A program made the position numbers and the translations under genes. The notes below the pieces were generated by a model. It was not told the origin of the DNA and did no database searches. It saw nothing but the letters and a program-made list of their open reading frames with translations. Below, one piece after another: positions 935 through 20,342 of a stretch of DNA of 22,538 nucleotides (positions are counted from its first letter, which is position 1; each line of letters begins with the position of its first letter). The stretch lies in the IMG/VR virus record IMGVR_UViG_3300034062_007749, positions 1 to 22,538 of that record, one strand, 5' to 3'. This DNA comes from a virus.

Positions 935-968
935 TATATAAGGGAATAACATACTAGGGGTGTTATGT

Positions 969-1610
969 ATGACAAAAGTTATGATAGGACTTCCGATACA
1001 TCGACCCATTGAATTCAAAGTATTTGAGTCGTTCATCCGCATGACGAATCAACGGAATGACATCAAACTTGAATTCTCAATGGTATCAAACAGCTTAATC
1101 TATGACGCTCGTGAATACGTAGCAGAACAATTCATGAAGAGTGATAACGAGTATTTGATGTTCATCGACAGTGACATGACGTTTCACCCGCAAAGTCTGC
1201 AGTTTTTGCTACGGCACGACAAAGAGTTTGTCACCGCAAAAGCTTTCAAGCGTGTACATCCGTATCAACCGTGTTTTTATACAAAGGTACTGTATGAAAA
1301 TGGGTTGCCCAGCTTGGAAGTGCCTACTGGATACGGCGAAGGATTACTGCCGATTGAAGGTGCGGGGCTAGCATGTGCATTGATTAAGCGATCCGCTTTT
1401 GAAAAGCTAGAAAAGCCGTATTTTTTCCCGCTCCCCAACGTAGGGGAAGATTTATCTTTCTGCATCAAATTGAAAGCAGCAGGCGTTAAAATGTATTGCG
1501 ATACGACGTTGCAATTCGGACACCTTGCGCAGCAGGAGATATTCGAAAAGCATTTCGTTGATGCGTTTGCGAAGATGGAGCAGGATAAACAGCAGGAAAA
1601 AGCACAATGA
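969..1610 (+). CDS. Glycosyltransferase, GT-A fold (GT2-like), first of a pair
   Basis: The ATG at 969 (213 residues) is preferred over the ATG at 960, because AGGGGT at 955-960 then sits at normal spacing. The protein opens with a GT-A-like strand (VMIGLPIHRP). It has a DSD metal/nucleotide-sugar motif at D67-D69 (MFIDSDMTF), an acceptor-side ED pair at E160-D161 (VGEDLSFCIKLKAAG) and a C-terminal His at H185 (FGHL), the usual order in GT2 enzymes. There is no membrane anchor, so it would act in the cytoplasm. The substrate is unknown. It lies between capsid and connector genes and its stop overlaps the next glycosyltransferase start, so the two are probably translated together. Modification of a virion protein such as the capsid is an inference from position; cell-wall or DNA modification is possible. 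The GT-A fold is quite certain, the acceptor is not. Confidence 0.83.
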   Translation: MTKVMIGLPIHRPIEFKVFESFIRMTNQRNDIKLEFSMVSNSLIYDAREYVAEQFMKSDNEYLMFIDSDMTFHPQSLQFLLRHDKEFVTAKAFKRVHPYQPCFYTKVLYENGLPSLEVPTGYGEGLLPIEGAGLACALIKRSAFEKLEKPYFFPLPNVGEDLSFCIKLKAAGVKMYCDTTLQFGHLAQQEIFEKHFVDAFAKMEQDKQQEKAQ

Positions 1611-2323
1611 AAATCCTCATCGGCGCTCCTGTGAAACAAGATGAAACGACTTTCAAGTATTACCTTGAATCGCTAGCCAATCAACAGCACACGTGCAGCG
1701 TTGATTATTTTTTTATACTGCATAACTCACCGCAACTGAAACAACATTTGCATCGGCATCAGTACGAGGAGTATTCCAACAATACCACGTATCAAAAGGA
1801 TGACACGCATGTATGGAAGAATAACAATTTACGTGATGTAGCGAATATGAAAAATTATTTGCTTAAAAAGACGCTTGAAGAAGGCTATGACTATTTCTTC
1901 CTTGTTGATTCCGATGTCATGCTACACCCGAAAACATTGTCGCATCTCGTCGCTCAACAAAAACATATTTGCAGTGAAGTTTTTTGGACTCGTTGGCGTA
2001 GCGATGAAGAGGAAATGCCGAATGCGTGGGAACACGACTATTACAGCTACACCAAAATGGGCATGTGGAACAAGTGGAGAAAGAAAGGCTTGTATGAAGT
2101 AGGATACAGTGGAGCGTGTATTTTGATACACCGTGATGTCATCGCATCGGGCGTAACCTACTCACCACTGTATAATGTATCGTTCTCCAACTGGGAAGAC
2201 AGAGCTTTTTGCATTAGAGCAGCAGCGCACGGATACAAGATATACATGGATACCCACTATCCTGCTACTCACTTGTACAGGGAAGAGGATGTGAAGAGTT
2301 ATGGGCTACGTTGCAAAACATAA
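1607..2323 (+). CDS. Glycosyltransferase, GT-A fold, second of a pair
   Basis: This 238-residue protein starts at an ATG that overlaps the previous stop (ATGA), so it is translationally coupled. It repeats the GT-A order: an N-terminal KILIGAPVK strand, a DSD motif at D101-D103 (FLVDSDVMLHP), a WED motif at W196-D198 (NWEDRAFCIRAAAHG) and a late His at H222. Residues 128-162 form an aromatic and charged insertion (many W, Y, E) that is absent from the first enzyme and may contact donor or acceptor. The two enzymes share motif order but are clearly diverged, so they probably add different sugars or act on different acceptors in sequence. The gene's 3' end overlaps the start of the next small head gene by 23 bases, so the pair is embedded in the head operon rather than loosely inserted. 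The substrate is unknown. Confidence 0.83.
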   Translation: MKILIGAPVKQDETTFKYYLESLANQQHTCSVDYFFILHNSPQLKQHLHRHQYEEYSNNTTYQKDDTHVWKNNNLRDVANMKNYLLKKTLEEGYDYFFLVDSDVMLHPKTLSHLVAQQKHICSEVFWTRWRSDEEEMPNAWEHDYYSYTKMGMWNKWRKKGLYEVGYSGACILIHRDVIASGVTYSPLYNVSFSNWEDRAFCIRAAAHGYKIYMDTHYPATHLYREEDVKSYGLRCKT

Positions 2324-2525: not shown

Positions 2526-3105
2526 AACAGAGCCAGTGTGGCATCCTGTTACGGATGTAGAATTTAAGCGTTACGCAAGAATCGATGACGCTGTTGATGA
2601 AAATCCTTCACTGATCAACGAAATTATTCACGCAGCGACGCAGATTGTTGAATCTTACATGGGTACCGTGTTTCATCGCAGGACTTTCGTGCAACGCCAA
2701 ACAGGTGGAGTAGAGTATATCCCTGCTATGAGAACGCCTGTAACGACAGTTTCATCTATCACGTATGCGGAGAGTTTCGAATCTTCCTATGTCACCGTCT
2801 CTACCTCTTCATACCGTGTCGGTGGCAACGACTTTTATCACAAAGACGGTTATTTCACAGCAGGCAGACCAGCCAATGGCTATGTCATCACGTATACGGC
2901 TGGCATGGTAGCAGACGCAACACCATCTACACTATCAACGGATATAAAAACGGCAGTGTTACGAGTCGCTGCGTTTCTTTATGAGAATCGGCAGGAGTAT
3001 GCGACTGGATGGAGCGAGCAAGGATTTAGCATAAGCTACGACATCTTGAAGGGTGTTATCGGCAGAATTGTGAATCATTCAGCGTCAGCACGAGGGGTGT
3101 TTTAA
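2482..3105 (+). CDS. Head-tail connector protein (gp6/gp8-like)
   Basis: The 207-residue protein starts at ATG 2482 after a strong GAGGGGGAAGG site. It has the pattern of the phage head-tail connector family: a mostly helical N-terminal half in which acidic residues precede a helix (DDAVDENPSLINEIIHAATQIVESYMG), then a beta part with RTPVTTVSSITY and a YTAGM segment, then a final helix (IKTAVLRVAAFLYENRQEY). In this family the protein forms a ring below the portal that closes the filled head. Its position after the capsid and directly before an SPP1 gp16-like adaptor fits exactly. The stop overlaps the next start by one base (TAATG). Confidence 0.82.
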   Translation: MLDNAPIPQLITVTETEPVWHPVTDVEFKRYARIDDAVDENPSLINEIIHAATQIVESYMGTVFHRRTFVQRQTGGVEYIPAMRTPVTTVSSITYAESFESSYVTVSTSSYRVGGNDFYHKDGYFTAGRPANGYVITYTAGMVADATPSTLSTDIKTAVLRVAAFLYENRQEYATGWSEQGFSISYDILKGVIGRIVNHSASARGVF

Positions 3106-3413
3106 TGCTTACCTGCTTACGCAACACCATCACTATTCAATCGCTCACCGTTACACCAAGTGGCGGAGGAACGTTTTCCGAAGCATGGACGACTACATCG
3201 ACAGCTTGGGCGCGTGTTGAAGGCGTTGCGGTGGAGGAGACACGGTTTGACAAGATACAACAAGTGGAACAGTATACGATACGCATGCGAAAACAGCCAT
3301 TAAGCAACACGCAACGAATCGTTTATCTTGGCAAAGTGCTAGACATTGAATCCGTGTTGGATGAGACCCAATTGTCAAGGATGATGACGGTAAAAGCTAG
3401 GTGCGAAATATGA
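3105..3413 (+). CDS. Head-tail adaptor (SPP1 gp16-like, head-tail joining family)
   Basis: This 102-residue protein is mainly beta. It begins with LRNTITIQSLTVTPSGGGTFSEAW, continues with a WARVEGV strand and a TIRMRKQPL strand, and ends in a VYLGKVLDIESVLD segment, the usual order for small adaptor proteins of the phage head-tail joining family. The length matches the family. In SPP1-type phages it docks under the connector ring and acts as a stopper for packaged DNA. The start overlaps the preceding stop, and the stop overlaps the next ATG (ATGA at 3410), which indicates coupled translation of the connector proteins. Confidence 0.8.
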   Translation: MLTCLRNTITIQSLTVTPSGGGTFSEAWTTTSTAWARVEGVAVEETRFDKIQQVEQYTIRMRKQPLSNTQRIVYLGKVLDIESVLDETQLSRMMTVKARCEI

Positions 3414-5353: not shown

Positions 5354-8184
5354 TACAAGAATTATTTGTGAAGATATCGTCTGACTTCAAAGAGTTAAAC
5401 AGAGGTTTCACCGAAGCATTTCGAAATGCAAAGACTTTCAGCAGCAAAATGGAAGGCTTGACATCGCTAGGGGACAGCATGAAAAACTTTGGAGCGTCGA
5501 TGACTGGGTTTGTCACGCTACCCCTCGCTCTTGCGGGTGGAGCAGCGATAAAGCTAGCGAGCGACATGGAAGAAACGCAGAACAAAGTTAGCGTTGCATT
5601 CGGCGACTCGGCGCAAGCGGTGAAGGATTGGTCAAAAACATCCATTGAATCAATGGGACTAGCGCAACAGTCAGCACTTGACGCTGCTGCTTTATTCGGC
5701 GACATGGGCACATCGATGGGGATAGCACGAGACGATGCAGCAGAAATGTCAATGGGGCTCACGCAACTTGGCGCAGATTTAGCGTCTTTCAAAAACGTGG
5801 GCATCGACCAAGCGATGGGCGCATTAAAAGGAGTTTTCACAGGAGAAACGGACTCGCTGACGCAATTAGGATACGTGATGACGGAAACAAATCTCAAAGC
5901 GTTTGCGATGAGTAAGGGTATCACCAAAAATGTCGAAGATATGACGCAGGCAGAGAAGGTTAATCTAAGGTTTGCATTCGTTATGGAAGCTACAAAAAAT
6001 GCGCAAGGAGATTTTTCACGCACAAGCGAAGGCGCAGCGAATCAGATGCGTATGTTCGGGGAATCGCTAAAAGAATTGGGAGCGATTTTAGGCGCTACGA
6101 TTTTACCCTTGTTCACGAAAGTTATAAAATTTACCAACGGAATACTGCAAGAGTTTATGGGATTATCGGAAGGAACGAAAAAAGTCATCATTGGTGTAGG
6201 AGCGTTTGCGCTTGCATTGGGTCCAGTGATTGTAGGAATCGGGGCTGTTTTAGCAGCATTGCCACTGATGACAACTGGATTCATGATGGTGATCCCTGCT
6301 GTAAAAGCCCTTGGAGTAGCACTAAGTTTTCTTGCGTTAAATCCGATAGGAATGGTTATAACAGCAATTGGCGCGCTTATTGCAGCAGGGGTTTATTTAT
6401 CGAAAGGCTGGGGCGAAACGCATGCTAAAATGTTAAAAATCAGCACAGCAATTTCATATGCGGTAGAAAAGGCATTGTCTCACGCTAAGTCAGCAGCGTT
6501 GTTTGCAATCGATAAGATTTTAGCAGGGCTAAACTTAATCCTAAAATTCGTTCCGGGGTTTGAAGATAAGGTTGATACATTGCGAAAGTCTTTGTCCACC
6601 ATGATGGGTGACGAATCAATAAAGCGTCAAAGTGAAGCGGTGAAGTATGCGTCTGATCAAGCTGGATTGTCGATGATTGCAGCATCTTATGCCGCCGAAG
6701 AGGCACGACAAAAAACAAAAGCGTTGGCAAATGAACTAAAAAACTCAAAAGATGCATCCGTGAAATACGATGACGGTATGAAAAAGCTTATGGAGAGCAT
6801 CGCAAAAGCAACACCTATAAAAGACAAAGCAACCACTTCCGAAAAGAGCAACAAAAAAGCAGTCGACGCAACAACTGAATCGCTGAAAAAAGCTACAGAG
6901 GCAGAAAATGAACGTGCCAAGGAACAGTACGAAAACACCGTTACACAGCTTGACAAACTCGGCGCAGCGATAACAGAAGCATTGAAAAAACGGTACGCAG
7001 CGCAGGAAAAAATAGAACTTGCAGCGTGGGAAAATAGAAAGAAAAAGGATAAAGCAGGTTTGGAAGAATCTTTCTCTGCTTATAAAAAAGCGTATGATAA
7101 TGATGTAAAACTATTAAAGGATAAGCACAAAAACGAATTAAAATCGTTCAACGATGCGCAAAGTAAAAAGCTTGCAATTATCAACGCCGAAACACTTCAA
7201 GAGTTGGACAAGGTGCAAAAGCAAATCGATGACATACAAAATCTCACCAAAACAGAAGAAAAGCAGTTAGAAGAGCAAGCGTATAACACCAAAATCGCAG
7301 AATTGCAAAAAGAGGTACTCACCGCTAAATCAGCGGAGGAACGCTTAAAAGCGCAAGCTAAACTTGATGAAGAAATGCAAAAACGTCAACGAGAGTTACT
7401 TTTAGAATCAAGAAAAATAGAGATTGAATCGTTGGAAAAACGTATGAACGACATACGAATTGACGGCGAAGAAAGGAAAAAACAACACGAGTTTGATACA
7501 GCCACTGCATTGACAGCTTTAGAAACTCGGTTAGAAAACGAGCGCATCGCTAGTGAAGAATCCTACACGCAAAAAGAAGAGACGTATCAAAGAAATCTTC
7601 AGCAACTAGACGGATACATCGAAGATGAGGTTTCAAAGGTTAGGTCAAAATTCGAAACATTGACAAGCGATGAAAAGTTGTTTGAGGAGTCACGGCGACT
7701 AGCACTAAGAGAGAATCAAGACGAATTGATAAAATTGCTCAACGAGTATAATCCGAAGTGGCAGGATGCAGGACAAAGTTTCGGGCAGAGCATGCTAAAC
7801 GGATTGAACTCGATGAAGTCAAGCATCCAGCAAACGGTCAACGAGATACTGGGCATGGTTGGCAAGATTGAAAACGAGAAACGCTATTTGCAGGGATTAA
7901 TCGAACAGGGTAAACAAACAGGAAATACAGGGTTGGTGAATTGGGCAAAACAGCAAGGCAGTTTATTAGGCGTGCCGTTTCTAGCGGACGGCGGAATCAT
8001 CACGTCACCAACGCTAGCAATGGTCGGCGAGGCAGGAACGGAAGCGGTTATTCCACTCAATCGACTGAACGACTTTGGCGGAGCAAAGGAAACGAATATA
8101 TACTTGGATGGACGAAAAATAACAGGGGTCCTCGCTCCAACGATGGTGGACATGATACGTGGTCGTGTAGGGAGTGCATACTGA
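5350..8184 (+). CDS. Tail tape measure protein
   Basis: This is the longest protein (944 residues), starting at an ATG that overlaps the chaperone stop. The N-terminal third is a TP901-type tape-measure core with a hydrophobic segment near residues 48-71 and FGDSAQAVKDWSKTSIESMG and ALFGDMGTSMG stretches. Residues about 280-353 hold several hydrophobic segments (LGPVIVGIGAVLAAL, LNPIGMVITAIGALIAAGV) that could enter the host membrane during DNA ejection. Residues about 500-785 are a long charged coiled coil rich in Lys, Glu and Gln. The C-terminus has the conserved ADGGIITSPTLAMVGEAG..AVIPL motif near 880-905. No peptidase or lysozyme motif was seen. By the usual rule of about 1.5 angstrom per residue, the tail would be near 140 nm; that figure is an inference. 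Confidence 0.92.
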   Translation: MIQELFVKISSDFKELNRGFTEAFRNAKTFSSKMEGLTSLGDSMKNFGASMTGFVTLPLALAGGAAIKLASDMEETQNKVSVAFGDSAQAVKDWSKTSIESMGLAQQSALDAAALFGDMGTSMGIARDDAAEMSMGLTQLGADLASFKNVGIDQAMGALKGVFTGETDSLTQLGYVMTETNLKAFAMSKGITKNVEDMTQAEKVNLRFAFVMEATKNAQGDFSRTSEGAANQMRMFGESLKELGAILGATILPLFTKVIKFTNGILQEFMGLSEGTKKVIIGVGAFALALGPVIVGIGAVLAALPLMTTGFMMVIPAVKALGVALSFLALNPIGMVITAIGALIAAGVYLSKGWGETHAKMLKISTAISYAVEKALSHAKSAALFAIDKILAGLNLILKFVPGFEDKVDTLRKSLSTMMGDESIKRQSEAVKYASDQAGLSMIAASYAAEEARQKTKALANELKNSKDASVKYDDGMKKLMESIAKATPIKDKATTSEKSNKKAVDATTESLKKATEAENERAKEQYENTVTQLDKLGAAITEALKKRYAAQEKIELAAWENRKKKDKAGLEESFSAYKKAYDNDVKLLKDKHKNELKSFNDAQSKKLAIINAETLQELDKVQKQIDDIQNLTKTEEKQLEEQAYNTKIAELQKEVLTAKSAEERLKAQAKLDEEMQKRQRELLLESRKIEIESLEKRMNDIRIDGEERKKQHEFDTATALTALETRLENERIASEESYTQKEETYQRNLQQLDGYIEDEVSKVRSKFETLTSDEKLFEESRRLALRENQDELIKLLNEYNPKWQDAGQSFGQSMLNGLNSMKSSIQQTVNEILGMVGKIENEKRYLQGLIEQGKQTGNTGLVNWAKQQGSLLGVPFLADGGIITSPTLAMVGEAGTEAVIPLNRLNDFGGAKETNIYLDGRKITGVLAPTMVDMIRGRVGSAY

Positions 8185-10592
8185 TGCAGATCATCATATC
8201 GGGGATTGACAGAACAAATCGGTTCCGCTCGGGTTCGCTGGAAATCGAAGACACAATCAACGAGCGCTCCATGGCACGTCTGCAACTTGTAGACGTGTCC
8301 ATGACGATGGATTTACAGGATGGGCAACAGATACAGATATACGATGACTATTCTACGCTTATATTTGCTGGGTTTCTCCTGTATCCGAAGAAGCATGTTC
8401 CGCTAGCTAAAAATGCGTGGTATTACGACGTAGAGTGCGTCGATAATCACCAAATTGCAGACAGATGGCTTGTAGCAAAAACATATACGAACACTGCCGT
8501 TCACACGATTGTAAATGACCTGTATACTACGTATCTCGTGCCAGATGGTATAACGCTAGGCAACATCGCTACAACGTCTGTAACGCTTGATAAAGCGTCT
8601 TTCCCAAGGGTTGGCACGGTGTCCGATGCGCTAAACGAGTTATGCGATATAACGGGTTTCAATTGGTACATTGATTATGACAAGAAATTTTATTTTACCC
8701 CTCGTAGCTTTTTTGTTGCTCCATTCGGAATCACCACTACGTCAAGTATAAACAATGTTCAAGTGCGACAAGACCGTTCGCAGTATCGGAATAGACAGTA
8801 CATCCGTGGTGGTCAGATACAGACGGATGAAATCGCATTAGAAAAGCCGACACCAAATCCCGATGGCGTATCTCGTGTTTTCATTACACGGTTTCCGATA
8901 TCGGATAAACCTAGAATATTTATAAACAGTGTTGAAATAACAGCTACGGATATAGGGGTAAACGGTGTAGACAAAAACAAAAAGTATTACTATGATGTGG
9001 GGAAGAACACGATTGTTCAGGACGGAACGCAGACTGTTTTATCAACAGCAGACGTGATACAGGTAACATATAAAGGCTTAATTTCCCTTGCCGTTGTATC
9101 GGAAGATCCCATTTCCATCGCAAACCGTGCATCGCTAGAAGGTAACACAGGCGTATACGAGCGTATCGATGTCGACACATCCATTGTGTCACGTGGTGAG
9201 GCGATATCGATTGCGACAGGAAAGCTTGAAAAATACACAAAAGTAGCGCGACAAATCACGTATGATACGTACACAGCAGGACTCGCCGCGGGGCAATTGC
9301 AAACCATCACGCTACCCGAATACAATATAAGCTCTACTGATTTTCTGATTGACAAGGTTACTATATCGGAGCTCGATGGAGCGGGGCGACTCGTATACAC
9401 GGTGCACGCTATCGACGGCGATCCACTTGGAGGATGGCAAAAATTCTACAACGACTTACTCAAACAAGACCTAAAAGCGAGTATCAGGGAAAACGAATTA
9501 CTGGTCATCCTCACCGCTACATCGGAAACGGAGGGCTGGACGGAGGCGGTAACACAGACAACACAAGCGTGTTTTGTTCCGTCTGAATTTTTGTATCCGT
9601 CAGATACTCTTATACCGTGCGGATTGCCTACTGGAACACTTTCGATATCACCGACGTCTTGGTCACCAACTGCAACTACCGCATCGACAACGATCAGTGT
9701 TACATCAAATGTTGCGTGGAATGTTTTCAGCAACCAACCTTGGCTTACGTTTACTCCTGTAAGCGGTTCTAACAACGGTTCTGTTGTGGCGACGGTGGCG
9801 CAAAACACATCTTCAACTCGAACTGGAGCTATCACCATCATTGGCGGAGGAGTGACGCAAACGGCGTCAGTGACGCAGGCAAGTATTCCGCAGTCAGTTT
9901 ACGCAAGTGTTACAAACGGAGATATTTACAAACAAACTGGTGGTACAGGGAATTTTGTTGCGTTAAGTCAAACGTCTAGGCAGTGGAGCGCAATGACTTC
10001 TGCTAATGGCAATGTATATTCTGCGGTTGTTTTTGGAGACATTTACATGCAAAGTGGTGGTACAGGGAATTTTGTTGCACTCGGGCAAACTTCAAGAGGG
10101 TGGCGTGGTATGACAAAACTCGGTAGCGATGTATATGCTTGTGTAAATGGTGGCGACATTTACAAGCAAACTGGAGGTACAGGGAATTTTGTTGGGCTTG
10201 GGCAAACAGTAAGGGGTTGGATGGCTATGGCAACCGCAAATGGAAACGTATACGCTTTTGTTCAAAATGGTGACATTTATATGCAGACTGGCGGTACAGG
10301 GAATTTTGTCGCACTCGGTCAAACAAATAGGAACTGGGTTGACGCAACATCTAATAACGGAAATGTTTATGCAGCAGTGAACAACGGCGACATTTACATG
10401 CAAAGTGGTGGTACAGGGAATTTTGTTGCACTCGGGCAAACTTCACGGACATGGACTGGAATGGCGTCCGCCAATAATGATGTATACGCGGCAACATTTA
10501 CTGGCGACATTTACAAGCAAACTGGAGGTACAGGGAATTTTGTTGGGCTTGGGCAAACGTCTAGACAGTGGTCGAAGATGACATCTTTGTAA
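8184..10592 (+). CDS. Baseplate / tail-associated protein with BACON-like domain and six-unit C-terminal repeat
   Basis: ATG 8184 overlaps the tape-measure stop and gives 802 residues; the frame is open further upstream to 7941 but that part lies inside the tape-measure gene. The N-terminal ~470 residues look like a baseplate hub or tail-associated protein (SGSLEIEDTINERSMARLQL, DGQQIQIYDD, YYDVECVDNHQIADRW, DALNELCDITGFNWYID). No separate distal-tail gene lies between this and the tape measure, so it may combine both roles. Residues about 482-568 resemble a BACON domain (LSISPTSWSP, ISVTSNVAWNV, GAITIIGGGVTQTASVTQA), a fold often tied to carbohydrate or cell-surface binding. Residues about 572-802 are six 39-residue repeats. 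The likely role is tail-tip binding to a host glycan. Domain calls are by eye; the repeats are certain, the BACON call is good, the hub call moderate. Confidence 0.8.
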   Translation: MQIIISGIDRTNRFRSGSLEIEDTINERSMARLQLVDVSMTMDLQDGQQIQIYDDYSTLIFAGFLLYPKKHVPLAKNAWYYDVECVDNHQIADRWLVAKTYTNTAVHTIVNDLYTTYLVPDGITLGNIATTSVTLDKASFPRVGTVSDALNELCDITGFNWYIDYDKKFYFTPRSFFVAPFGITTTSSINNVQVRQDRSQYRNRQYIRGGQIQTDEIALEKPTPNPDGVSRVFITRFPISDKPRIFINSVEITATDIGVNGVDKNKKYYYDVGKNTIVQDGTQTVLSTADVIQVTYKGLISLAVVSEDPISIANRASLEGNTGVYERIDVDTSIVSRGEAISIATGKLEKYTKVARQITYDTYTAGLAAGQLQTITLPEYNISSTDFLIDKVTISELDGAGRLVYTVHAIDGDPLGGWQKFYNDLLKQDLKASIRENELLVILTATSETEGWTEAVTQTTQACFVPSEFLYPSDTLIPCGLPTGTLSISPTSWSPTATTASTTISVTSNVAWNVFSNQPWLTFTPVSGSNNGSVVATVAQNTSSTRTGAITIIGGGVTQTASVTQASIPQSVYASVTNGDIYKQTGGTGNFVALSQTSRQWSAMTSANGNVYSAVVFGDIYMQSGGTGNFVALGQTSRGWRGMTKLGSDVYACVNGGDIYKQTGGTGNFVGLGQTVRGWMAMATANGNVYAFVQNGDIYMQTGGTGNFVALGQTNRNWVDATSNNGNVYAAVNNGDIYMQSGGTGNFVALGQTSRTWTGMASANNDVYAATFTGDIYKQTGGTGNFVGLGQTSRQWSKMTSL
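9897..10592 (+). repeat. Six tandem 117-bp coding repeats (propeller-like blades)
   Basis: Units start at 9897, 10014, 10131, 10248, 10365 and 10482; the last is 36 residues. The consensus reads VYA...NGDIY.Q.GGTGNF, then VALGQTSR.W..M. The core GGTACAGGGAATTTTGT recurs exactly 117 bases apart at 9942, 10059, 10176, 10293, 10410 and 10527. Units 2 and 5 share about 57 identical bases, and so do units 3 and 6, so a three-unit block seems to have been duplicated or converted. Six blades would suit a tectonin-like beta-propeller, a common lectin fold. Confidence 0.9.
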
Positions 10593-10840
10593 ACAGCTTT
10601 TCGGCTACAAGCTACACTCAGGCTACAAAAAAGCTGCAACACGTTTAAGGTTGAAAAGTTAGTATATATATAGCTTTTCTACCTCTATATATATAAAATG
10701 TAGTCTTGTAGTCTAAAATATATATAAATATATATAAAAAAATATGCGTTACTGCACGCAAGCACAGTAGCGTTTTAGAATGTATCAAATGTTCAGACTA
10801 CACGGCTACAAGACTACAAAAAGCTACGGAGGTGTGACGC
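10593..10840. other. Non-coding AT-rich spacer with repeated (A/G)(A/G)CTACA motifs
   Basis: No gene is visible in these 248 bases. The motif RRCTACA or a close form occurs in a left cluster (10603-10627), a right cluster (10795-10827) and twice inverted in the middle (TGTAGTCT at 10699-10706 and 10707-10714). Between them lie long TATATA runs (10663-10740). The inverted pair and the right cluster share 13 complementary bases (CTACAAGACTACA at 10806-10818). GAAAAGTTA (10653-10661) can pair with TAGCTTTTC (10671-10679). A weak promoter-like TTGTAG-17-TATATA lies at 10706-10734. The spacer probably controls the fibre genes downstream; an origin or recombination site is also possible. Confidence 0.65.
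10746..10776 (+). terminator. Possible intrinsic terminator in the fibre spacer
   Basis: GCGTTACTG (10746-10754) pairs with CAGTAGCGT (10765-10773), with two G-T wobbles, around a 10-base loop, and four T residues follow. The T-run is short, so termination on the + strand may be partial. On the opposite strand the same stem would be followed by a run of seven T residues, so it may work better in that direction. Confidence 0.4.
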
Positions 10841-11287
10841 ATGGAAGATAAAAAAGGATGGCTTGGACAATATGAAATTAGCGTGGGAGACGAGCGATTT
10901 ATCATCAACAACCTCATCACCGATGCGGGGTTGGACATGGTGCGCAACGCATTTAACGGCGAGCTCACATCAACAGAAATACGCTACTTGGCGGTGGGAA
11001 CGTCTGCTACAACGCCAAGTACGACGCAGACGCAGTTAGGGGCAGAGATATTCCGCACGCCGTTCATAGCGTCAACCAAGCCCGCTACGGGGCAACTAGA
11101 AAAAACGGCTGTTGTTCTTGAAACGGAAGCCGTGGCGAATATCCGTGAGATTGGAATTTTTGCAGGAAGCACGGCGACAACAACGTCAAATAGTGGTATA
11201 ATGGTATCGAGGGTACTATACTCACGCAACAAGACGAATCTAGAAACGATTCAGATTGTCCGTAGGGATACGATACAAAGGGGGTAA
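10841..11287 (+). CDS. Tail fibre / tail-tip structural protein, function not established
   Basis: This 148-residue protein starts at ATG 10841 behind a strong GGAGGTG site. It resembles small fibre-associated proteins of Bacillota phages: FIINNLITDAGLDMVRNAFNGE, then EIRYLAVGTSATTPSTTQTQLG, then an alternating-beta part with VANIREIGIFAG and a final VLYSRNKTNLETIQIVRRD. The 'itdaGld.i...l...i.ylavGtg...p' arrangement is common where a fibre joins the baseplate. It is the first gene after the non-coding spacer and starts a run of small fibre genes. No receptor-binding domain is visible, so it is more likely a base or adaptor piece than the tip itself. Confidence 0.65.
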   Translation: MEDKKGWLGQYEISVGDERFIINNLITDAGLDMVRNAFNGELTSTEIRYLAVGTSATTPSTTQTQLGAEIFRTPFIASTKPATGQLEKTAVVLETEAVANIREIGIFAGSTATTTSNSGIMVSRVLYSRNKTNLETIQIVRRDTIQRG

Positions 11288-17963: not shown

Positions 17964-18293
17964 ATGGGTATTCTTATTGCAGAAAAGCGGCGTGATATGG
18001 GGATGACGCAACTGGAACTTGCGGAGCGCATCGGGGTACGACAGGAGACGATGTCACGCATCGAACGAGGGGCGCAGGTACCAAGCTACGTTGTCGCCAA
18101 AAGCATTGCAGAGGTATTAGGAGAGTCGAAAGCTTTCGAGCCTAGCGAGGGTAGCCATGAGCGATTTTTCCGCAACGCAAATCAGAGTCGAGCTTTCCGT
18201 TTCTTCAACATTGACGCTGTGAAAACGTTCCTAAGTGGTTCAGGCGTTGAGATTGACACAAGCAATATCTTTGGAGGAGGTGACAAGAGATGA
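17964..18293 (+). CDS. XRE-family helix-turn-helix transcriptional regulator
   Basis: ATG 17964 follows AAAGGGGG and gives 109 residues; the in-frame ATG at 17898 lies within promoter P2 and cannot be used from that transcript. Residues about 3-53 are a classic XRE helix-turn-helix: LIAEKRRDMGMTQLELAERI, then GVRQETMSRIERGAQVPSYV and AKSIAEVLG. The remaining ~55 residues (FRNANQSRAFRFFNIDAVKT) may serve dimerisation or ligand binding and match no domain I know. It is the first gene of an early operon, overlapping the DUF2800 start, so it may set the level of its own operon and of the other promoters with the ATCATATGAT palindrome. A lysogeny repressor role is possible but no integrase or divergent promoter is seen. 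Confidence 0.88.
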   Translation: MGILIAEKRRDMGMTQLELAERIGVRQETMSRIERGAQVPSYVVAKSIAEVLGESKAFEPSEGSHERFFRNANQSRAFRFFNIDAVKTFLSGSGVEIDTSNIFGGGDKR

Positions 18294-19318
18294 CGCAGAA
18301 ACACGCATTACTATCGCCAAGTGCAGCGTATCGGTGGATGGCTTGCCCCGCATCGATACAAGAGTGTCAAGAAGTGCCGTATAAAATGCCACGTGACACG
18401 AGCGCAGCAGAGTTAGGATCTAAGGTTCATGCAGCGGTTGAAAAAAAGTTTTCAGGGAAGGACGCAGAAGATGTTGAGGTGATTGAAAGCGCAGCGGACG
18501 ACTTTGTGGAGTATGTGAAGAGTTTCGATTTTGACACGGTGTACAGTGAAAAAACTCTATACATCAAGGAGCAACCCGATTGTTGGGGAACGGCGGATAT
18601 CGTAGGAGTAAAAGGCGACACGCTTTACATCATCGACTTGAAATATGGCATGTATCCCGTATCGGCGTTATGGAATCCACAATTGATGATATACGCTTGC
18701 GCCGCCTTGGATACACTGGATGGCTTGGAGCACGTGAAGGCGGTCACTATGATTATCTATCAACCACGATTAAAAAACATCGATGAATTCACGTTGTCAC
18801 GCAAATCGCTGGAAAACTGGAAGACAACAAAACTACTCCCATCCGCACAAATCGCACTAGGAAACTACGGAGAGTATGCGCTCGGAACGCATTGCCGATA
18901 CTGCCCCGCCAAAAGTGCATGCGTAGCACGAAACGGCGAAATTTTTGAAAGAGTCGTCGAGGCGTGTGGGCAGTATCGTGAGGTCACGGAAGATACGAAA
19001 TTGCAAATGATTGACAATATCATGAAACGTCACGATGAGTTATCGAAGTTTCTTAAAGAAGTTAAGGAATACGCACATTATGCGATGACGCAGGGTCATG
19101 AGTTTGAGAGCGTCAAGCTCGCAGACGGAAACAAAACAAGGTTTATCACAGACGTTGATGGATTAATTGAAAAGCTGAAAGAATTGGGAATTGATGAATC
19201 AGATTATAAAGATATGAAAAGCGTCGCATCGCTTGAAAAGATCGTCGGCAAAGACGTGCTACAGTTTTTCGTTGGCGAGCGAGCAGGTGCTCCTGTGGTG
19301 AAGAGGAGGATAAAATGA
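18290..19318 (+). CDS. DUF2800 protein, PD-(D/E)XK nuclease-like with iron-sulfur cysteines
   Basis: ATG 18290 overlaps the regulator stop and follows GGAGGAGG; 342 residues. The protein begins LLSPSAAYRWMACPASIQ and shows the RecB/Cas4-type layout: E41 and H47 (AELGSKVHAAVE), D103 in GTADIV, D116-L-K118 in YIIDLKYG, then NPQLMIYACA (Q131, Y135). C19 together with C202, C205 and C211 (HCRYCPAKSAC) could hold an iron-sulfur cluster as in Cas4 and AddB. DUF2800 genes commonly accompany DUF2815 genes in phage replication regions. The probable role is nuclease or strand processing in phage DNA replication or recombination; activity has not been shown for this protein. The C-terminal third (residues 220-340) is helical and charged. 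Confidence 0.85.
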   Translation: MTQKHALLSPSAAYRWMACPASIQECQEVPYKMPRDTSAAELGSKVHAAVEKKFSGKDAEDVEVIESAADDFVEYVKSFDFDTVYSEKTLYIKEQPDCWGTADIVGVKGDTLYIIDLKYGMYPVSALWNPQLMIYACAALDTLDGLEHVKAVTMIIYQPRLKNIDEFTLSRKSLENWKTTKLLPSAQIALGNYGEYALGTHCRYCPAKSACVARNGEIFERVVEACGQYREVTEDTKLQMIDNIMKRHDELSKFLKEVKEYAHYAMTQGHEFESVKLADGNKTRFITDVDGLIEKLKELGIDESDYKDMKSVASLEKIVGKDVLQFFVGERAGAPVVKRRIK

Positions 19319-19799: not shown

Positions 19800-20342
19800 A
19801 TGAAAACAACACTTAAAACAGTACGTTTCAGCTATGCGCATGTTTTTGAGCCACGAGGGTTTGACGGAAACACGCCGAAATACAGCGCATCGCTGTTGAT
19901 TGACAAAAGCGATGAAGCACTTGTAAAGCGAATCAAAGAGGCGTTACAGGTTGCGATTGACGAGGGTATCCCAAAAAAGTGGGGAGGGAAGAAGCCTGCA
20001 AAGCTTGACATTTGCTTGCGAGACGGCGACACGGAGCGACCAGAAGATCCAAACTATGCAGGGAAATACTACATCAACGCTAGCAATGTAAAGCAACCTA
20101 CGGTACTCAATCAATACGCTAAGCCAGCGACACAAGACGAGTTTTATAGCGGATGCTACGGCGTAGCGGTGGTGGACTTCTACCCGCACAGCCACAAAAA
20201 TATGAAACACGGCGTTTATGCGCAGTTGCTTGCGGTGATGAAAACGGAAGATGGCGAATCGTTCGGAGCGTCGGGGATCGACTTGTCGGAGCTAGCACAA
20301 TTCGCAGTGAAGCCAAGCGATACGGCGTTGGACTTCTTATGA
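19800..20342 (+). CDS. DUF2815 family single-stranded DNA-binding protein
   Basis: ATG 19800 follows AGGGGAG; 180 residues. The sequence fits DUF2815: VRFSYAHVFEPRGFDGNTPK, YSASLLIDKSDEALVKRIKE, then KYYINASNVKQPTVLNQYAK, EFYSGCYGVAVVDFYPHSHK and a Gly-Val-Tyr-Ala strand. The phage Enc34 member of this family is a known ssDNA-binding protein with an OB-type fold. The protein would coat single strands during phage replication. The expected acidic C-terminal end is mild here (LAQFAVKPSDTALDFL). The neighbouring DUF2800 gene supports a replication module. The long leader with six 10-bp repeats before this gene is unusual. Confidence 0.87.
   Translation: MKTTLKTVRFSYAHVFEPRGFDGNTPKYSASLLIDKSDEALVKRIKEALQVAIDEGIPKKWGGKKPAKLDICLRDGDTERPEDPNYAGKYYINASNVKQPTVLNQYAKPATQDEFYSGCYGVAVVDFYPHSHKNMKHGVYAQLLAVMKTEDGESFGASGIDLSELAQFAVKPSDTALDFL

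Follow-up and report, generated by a model that had tools for sequence, protein, structure and literature searches.

The 248-nt spacer between the baseplate and tail-fibre genes of the window (the whole stretch of viral DNA analysed, 22,538 nt) was an iteron array with the core CTACA, and we consider it probable (about 0.6) that this array duplicates, at an ectopic site, the phage's own probable replication-origin type and serves, in all likelihood, as another origin or as a helper site like crr of P4. This reading was adopted because homologous arrays follow vapE in relatives, as in SaPI/PICI origins, and the element was classed as an ectopic copy and not as a standard rep-side origin because it is sited between baseplate and fibre genes. 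The spacer, its parts and the relevant genes of the window are as follows.

8181–10592, plus strand: 5′ neighbour, baseplate/tail-tip protein with a BACON domain and C-terminal repeats
10593–10840, no strand: complete element, tail-region (ectopic) version of the iteron/AT-rich origin-type array, from alignment with the rep-module copies
10603–10638, plus strand: left iteron cluster, GGCTACA at 10603, AGCTACA at 10610, GGCTACA at 10621 and degenerate AGCTGCA at 10632
10640–10661, no strand: non-iteron segment (..TTTAAGGTTGAAAAGYTA), common to tail and rep copies of the RRCTACA type (type 1)
10663–10698, no strand: first TATATA-rich stretch, candidate unwinding element
10699–10713, minus strand: central inverted iteron pair TGTAGTC-T-TGTAGTC, in every intact copy
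10714–10744, no strand: second TATATA-rich stretch
10745–10795, no strand: non-iteron segment GCGTTACWGCAMGCAAGCA..TTTTAGAA, common to type-1 tail and rep copies
10796–10828, plus strand: right iteron cluster, GACTACA at 10796, GGCTACA at 10804, GACTACA at 10812 and truncated AGCTACG at 10822, which merges with the ribosome-binding site
10841–11287, plus strand: 3′ neighbour, tail-fibre-type protein (phrog_3737, phrog_4176)
18290–19318, plus strand: DUF2800 (PD-(D/E)XK) protein of the replication module
19800–20342, plus strand: Enc34-type ssDNA-binding protein of the replication module

The baseplate reading frame stopped at 10592 and the next ATG lay at 10841, leaving exactly 10593–10840 between the genes and bearing out the 248-base gap described in the initial annotation. 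About nine RRCTACA copies had been proposed there; the strong clustering stood, whereas the exact count was eight (10603, 10610 and 10621 on the plus strand; 10699 and 10707 on the minus strand; 10796, 10804 and 10812 on the plus strand), plus two near copies, AGCTGCA (10632–10638) and AGCTACG (10822–10828), the latter running into the ribosome-binding site. The arrangement was as originally described; the two outer clusters comprised three direct copies each, and the inverted central pair was flanked on both sides by TATATA runs. RRCTACA occurred 21 times in the whole window against 9.7 expected, a number reached in none of 100 shuffles. The maximum per 248-nt scan was eight in the window and at most three in 300 whole-window shuffles, and shuffling of the spacer itself gave a mean of 0.37 sites, with eight reached in none of 2000 shuffles. 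An Rfam search of the spacer returned no RNA family, and a DNA search with it among named phages gave no match. Single-strand folding yielded z = −3.1, which was not counted as RNA evidence because the inverted iterons would by themselves lead one to expect such folding.

Scanning of public viral contigs for the central inverted pair located the rep-side copy, which came right after the 3′ end of a 784-codon gene and ahead of a SNF2 helicase gene. Identity with the homologous array in close relatives was 78–91%, and the window element aligned with rep-module copies over ~240 nt at 78–87%, the rep-module array being longer by an extra outer inverted site at each end. In G001, G005, G003, L035, L037 and L058 the homologous copy directly followed the initiator gene. 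The 784-aa product contained a VapE domain (PF05272, 1e-69; phrog_256, 3e-198) and matched the SaPI initiator PriRep1 with dsDNA (PDB 7pds) in sequence (4e-63) and in fold (TM 0.79 on the target); its predicted secondary structure, judged by eye, suggests a winged helix at the C-terminus (about residues 680–784). vapE lies beyond the window end, so that neither the initiator nor the rep-side array of this phage falls within the analysed stretch; the window does contain the DUF2800 and ssDNA-binding genes, which place this phage in the same replication module as its relatives. An unwinding element with flanking protein sites and a secondary origin, both among the original suggestions, fit a spacer homologous to an iteron/AT-rich array 3′ of the VapE primase-helicase gene. 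The initial annotation had also named a background motif frequency and an unrelated spacer in relatives as findings that would speak against it; the motif proved enriched, and relatives carried a related array.

Scans with TTACTACA and TGTAGTCTTGTAGTC hit many unrelated contigs; any contig lacking either a clustered array or a vapE gene was set aside. The conserved non-iteron segment of each type, used as query, gave no new members; among genome contigs, a scan with the G005 VapE gave no match and a scan with the VapE alignment only ~30% identical relatives. Unrelated viral contigs (L076 at 2860–3310, L034 and L040) contained TGACTACA arrays in both orientations, which in L076 surrounded a TATATA run not far from a terminase gene. 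No vapE gene was found near these arrays, which possibly belong to other initiators using a similar repeat.

The repeat type changed together with the VapE C-terminus. The close phages G005 and L058 had different repeats beside vapE, TTACTACA (type 2) and RRCTACA (type 1), respectively. Their DNA identity was ~0.9 at the start of vapE, 0.52–0.60 across its C-terminal end and the array, and at least 0.8 in the next gene, and the identity of the VapE proteins dropped to 0.58–0.59 in the last 100 residues only. A third repeat type, TGTTCCA, was present in G003 and paired with a VapE of 41% identity. These comparisons, made at the sequence level, give indirect support, short of proof, to a role of the VapE C-terminus in reading the repeats. 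In the mechanism we propose, this domain would bind the iterons of both tail and rep copies, VapE hexamers would load at the iteron clusters, and the TATATA runs would melt before replication starts. Because VapE would bind both copies, the tail copy would be a second VapE-loading site, and a puzzling phage spacer becomes a direct, testable prediction.

In published SaPI/PICI systems the origin follows rep directly and consists of an AT-rich region bordered by two sets of iterons (PMC6092414), and the C-terminal domain of SaPI Rep recognizes the origin iterons (PMC7581432). The relatives resembled these systems in having a homologous initiator (the PriRep1 match above), an array directly 3′ of its gene, an AT-rich region with an iteron set on each side, and a repeat specific to each initiator. 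In contrast to SaPI/PICI, the present arrays belong to full-size tailed phages and not to satellites, contain an additional central inverted pair, and have a second complete copy far off in the tail region, which the part of the PICI paper used here does not describe.

We surveyed 20 named phages with VapE relatives for the most repeated 7-mer in the 700 nt around the vapE 3′ end. A clustered array stood directly after vapE in 14 of them (12 clear; 2 weak, with 4 copies in the Dorea case and 3 in the Ruminococcus case), each with its own repeat. In surveyed phages such as phiFL4A, LWP01, phiCDKH02, JS02, FutureBee and Fontainebleau, the array after vapE comprised 5–12 copies of a 7–9 nt repeat in both orientations within ~150–300 nt. 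The survey repeats, present in both orientations, included GTATCCA, GTCAACA, CGTTACC, GTTGCAT, GTTGCAG, TTGTCCC, TTGGTTG and TGTTCCT, and several ended in ..ACA. For nine phages the repeat count at vapE was equalled in no other window of the genome, a ranking that rests on the 7-mer count and misses degenerate repeats. Many prophages in bacterial genomes had arrays directly 3′ of vapE too. The survey indicates that the unit of vapE and array is widespread in VapE phages, with differing repeats, and yields initiator/iteron pairs for working out origin recognition by the VapE helicase family. It would extend the SaPI/PICI origin layout to VapE phages, whereas the PICI paper, in the part used here, describes this iteron/AT-rich organization as common to no other known replicon (PMC6092414).

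Six surveyed phages, all with Bacteroidota hosts (L167, L168, L171, BT34, PM708P4 and BV283P2 from INPHARED), had no recognizable array 3′ of vapE, and their origin therefore looks or lies different. A second cluster of the phage's own repeat occurred in none of the 14 array-bearing phages; unlike the phages described here, the surveyed ones had one array per genome wherever an array was present, and the two-array layout was seen in none of them.

The fibre protein was encoded on seven IMG/VR contigs, and the array was kept in register at the tail locus of three (G001, G004 and G005). The L003/G002 tail locus had the same architecture with all copies of another repeat, TTACTACA; G003 retained the last few repeats only, having lost most of the array; and the tail array was absent from two more distant contigs. 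Since G003, with its type-3 VapE, lost most of the array, the tail array is not essential in every lineage. This loss, along with the mismatch between tail and rep types in G005, would fit a passive relic, namely an origin array copied by chance into the tail region and drifting there, but we judge such a relic improbable from the pattern of conservation. Among the four type-1 tail copies, the CTACA cores were variable at 1 of 45 positions, compared with 39 of 162 positions elsewhere (p = 2.5e-4), and the five rep copies behaved alike (2 of 57 in the cores versus 34 of 186 elsewhere). Between the window and G001 on one side and G004 and G005 on the other, the element was 0.88–0.90 identical and thus better conserved than the flanking genes (0.71 and 0.75–0.76), and third codon positions of the fibre gene were 0.51–0.53 identical. 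Judged from these alignments, the tail copy is evidently constrained, keeping its iteron cores while the remainder drifts. Over 212 nt the L003 tail copy shared 85% identity with the rep copy in G005, and it hardly aligned with other tail copies, and the L003 flanking genes were 0.80 and 0.84 identical to those of the window. Because the array is foreign and the flanks are window-like, the unit from stop codon to ribosome-binding site was replaced whole in L003, at the same place and in the same orientation, an exchange for another type that also argues against a relic.

The geometry of the two arrays bears on the preferred reading of an ectopic origin copy. G001, of 33,549 bp, was circularly complete, its two ends sharing 87 identical nt. 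It contained exactly two RRCTACA clusters, a tail-locus one of 9 sites and one of 12 sites following vapE; their centres were separated by 17,318 nt on one arc of the circle and by 16,231 nt on the other. For G005 the corresponding distance was 17,214 nt, and the other arc was about 17.36 kb, estimated from a total length in which 2.1 kb missing from the contig was filled in from L037. Tail and rep copies were mutually inverted relative to gene direction. Roughly diametric arrays would suit two origins sharing the circle; if the tail array works, there would be two origin-type sites nearly opposite on a ~34 kb circle, or a long-range helper site. The near-opposite placement could be coincidence; by our own estimate a random site would fall this near the opposite pole about 1 time in 10, and both loci were visible in three contigs only. 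The GC skew of the complete relative peaked at the rep array, which is also a module boundary, and did not change at the tail array (third-position skew of 0.081 and 0.082 on its two sides). This flat skew counts against the preferred reading, as do the lack of the outermost inverted iterons in the tail copy, the loss in G003, the type mismatch in G005 and the end of the window before vapE.

The satellite phage P4 starts replication with a primase-helicase and requires a pair of iteron sites, which are separated by a few kb; its crr is essential. A helper or control site of this kind, or one resembling plasmid iteron handcuffing, is an unlikely but credible alternative, in which tail-bound VapE would contact the rep array and activate or limit it. 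Besides the P4 precedent, it would suit a tail copy that keeps its iteron cores and sits far from the rep copy, and ori1 and crr of P4 are alike in forming two separate iteron arrays per replicon with one primase-helicase (alpha in P4). Two arrays of the same iteron, as in P4, were present in G001 (9 + 12 sites). However, the tail copy retains the AT runs and non-iteron segments of the origin, beyond the needs of a binding-only site, and the arrays are ~16–17 kb apart here; unlike in P4, moreover, the tail array was lost in G003 and differed in repeat type from the rep array in G005, a mismatch that also speaks against a helper. The PICI paper also mentions the alpha protein of P4 together with its cis-acting site (PMC6092414).

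In G005 the tail array was type 1, and the rep array and VapE were type 2 (TTACTACA). Since the CTACA core is common to types 1 and 2, a single VapE may recognize both; failing that, G005 would be a recent hybrid, or its tail array would be meant for another phage's VapE. In the origin-derived resistance known from dairy phages, origin DNA supplied in trans interferes with the phage, and a tail array could in the same way be a decoy or piggy-back origin that titrates the VapE of a co-infecting relative or lets the genome be copied by it. The full preservation of the type-1 tail array in G005, whose own origin is type 2, would agree with this, but G001 has the same type at both loci, only three genomes have both loci, and the shared core makes cross-recognition by the phage's own VapE equally possible. 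We therefore regard a decoy as a long shot, and it is just as doubtful that the phage deliberately maintains, at the tail locus, the origin type of a rival while keeping its own in the replication module.

A role in regulating or recombining the tail-fibre operon (as a late promoter, an attenuator or a fibre-switching site), as first proposed, would agree with the position between baseplate and fibre genes, and we consider it very improbable, the homologous copy belonging to the replication module and not to a tail operon. The spacer contained no sigma-70-like promoter (1.3 expected), the coding strand had no terminator, and a single weak terminator-like site lay on the minus strand, leaving the promoter/attenuator proposal unsupported. 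Fibre switching at the spacer was likewise unsupported: relatedness between phages was about equal on both of its sides, with similar flank identities in all pairs, and the fibre genes changed downstream, at ~11.7 kb. The sole change, and the one point that agreed with a recombination site, was the edge of a variable baseplate extension (9587/10597), present in the window and missing from G001, which ends at the left edge of the element.

This extension of the baseplate gene (9587–10592, plus strand) comprised the BACON domain and ~7 near-identical repeats (GDIYMQTGGTGNFVALGQTSR..). It was present in the window and L003 and absent from G001, G003, G004 and G005, in which the baseplate gene ends earlier. 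Elsewhere in the window, an Rfam int-alpA RNA (RF02996) was detected at 880–944 on the plus strand (42.9 bits; cut-off 35.8), with head genes on one side and a glycosyltransferase-like gene on the other. Going by its name, this family would be located between int and alpA, and neither gene was seen beside the window copy; the RNA also occurred in the complete relative G001 (41.6 bits; L268 2087–2152, minus strand). Two adjoining genes at 960–2323 (plus strand) lay within the head cluster. The upstream gene of the pair had no such matches, and the gene at 1607–2323 had weak glycosyltransferase matches (Anp1, 1e-6; Glycos_transf_2, 3e-4), so that the pair possibly encodes virion-glycosylating enzymes.
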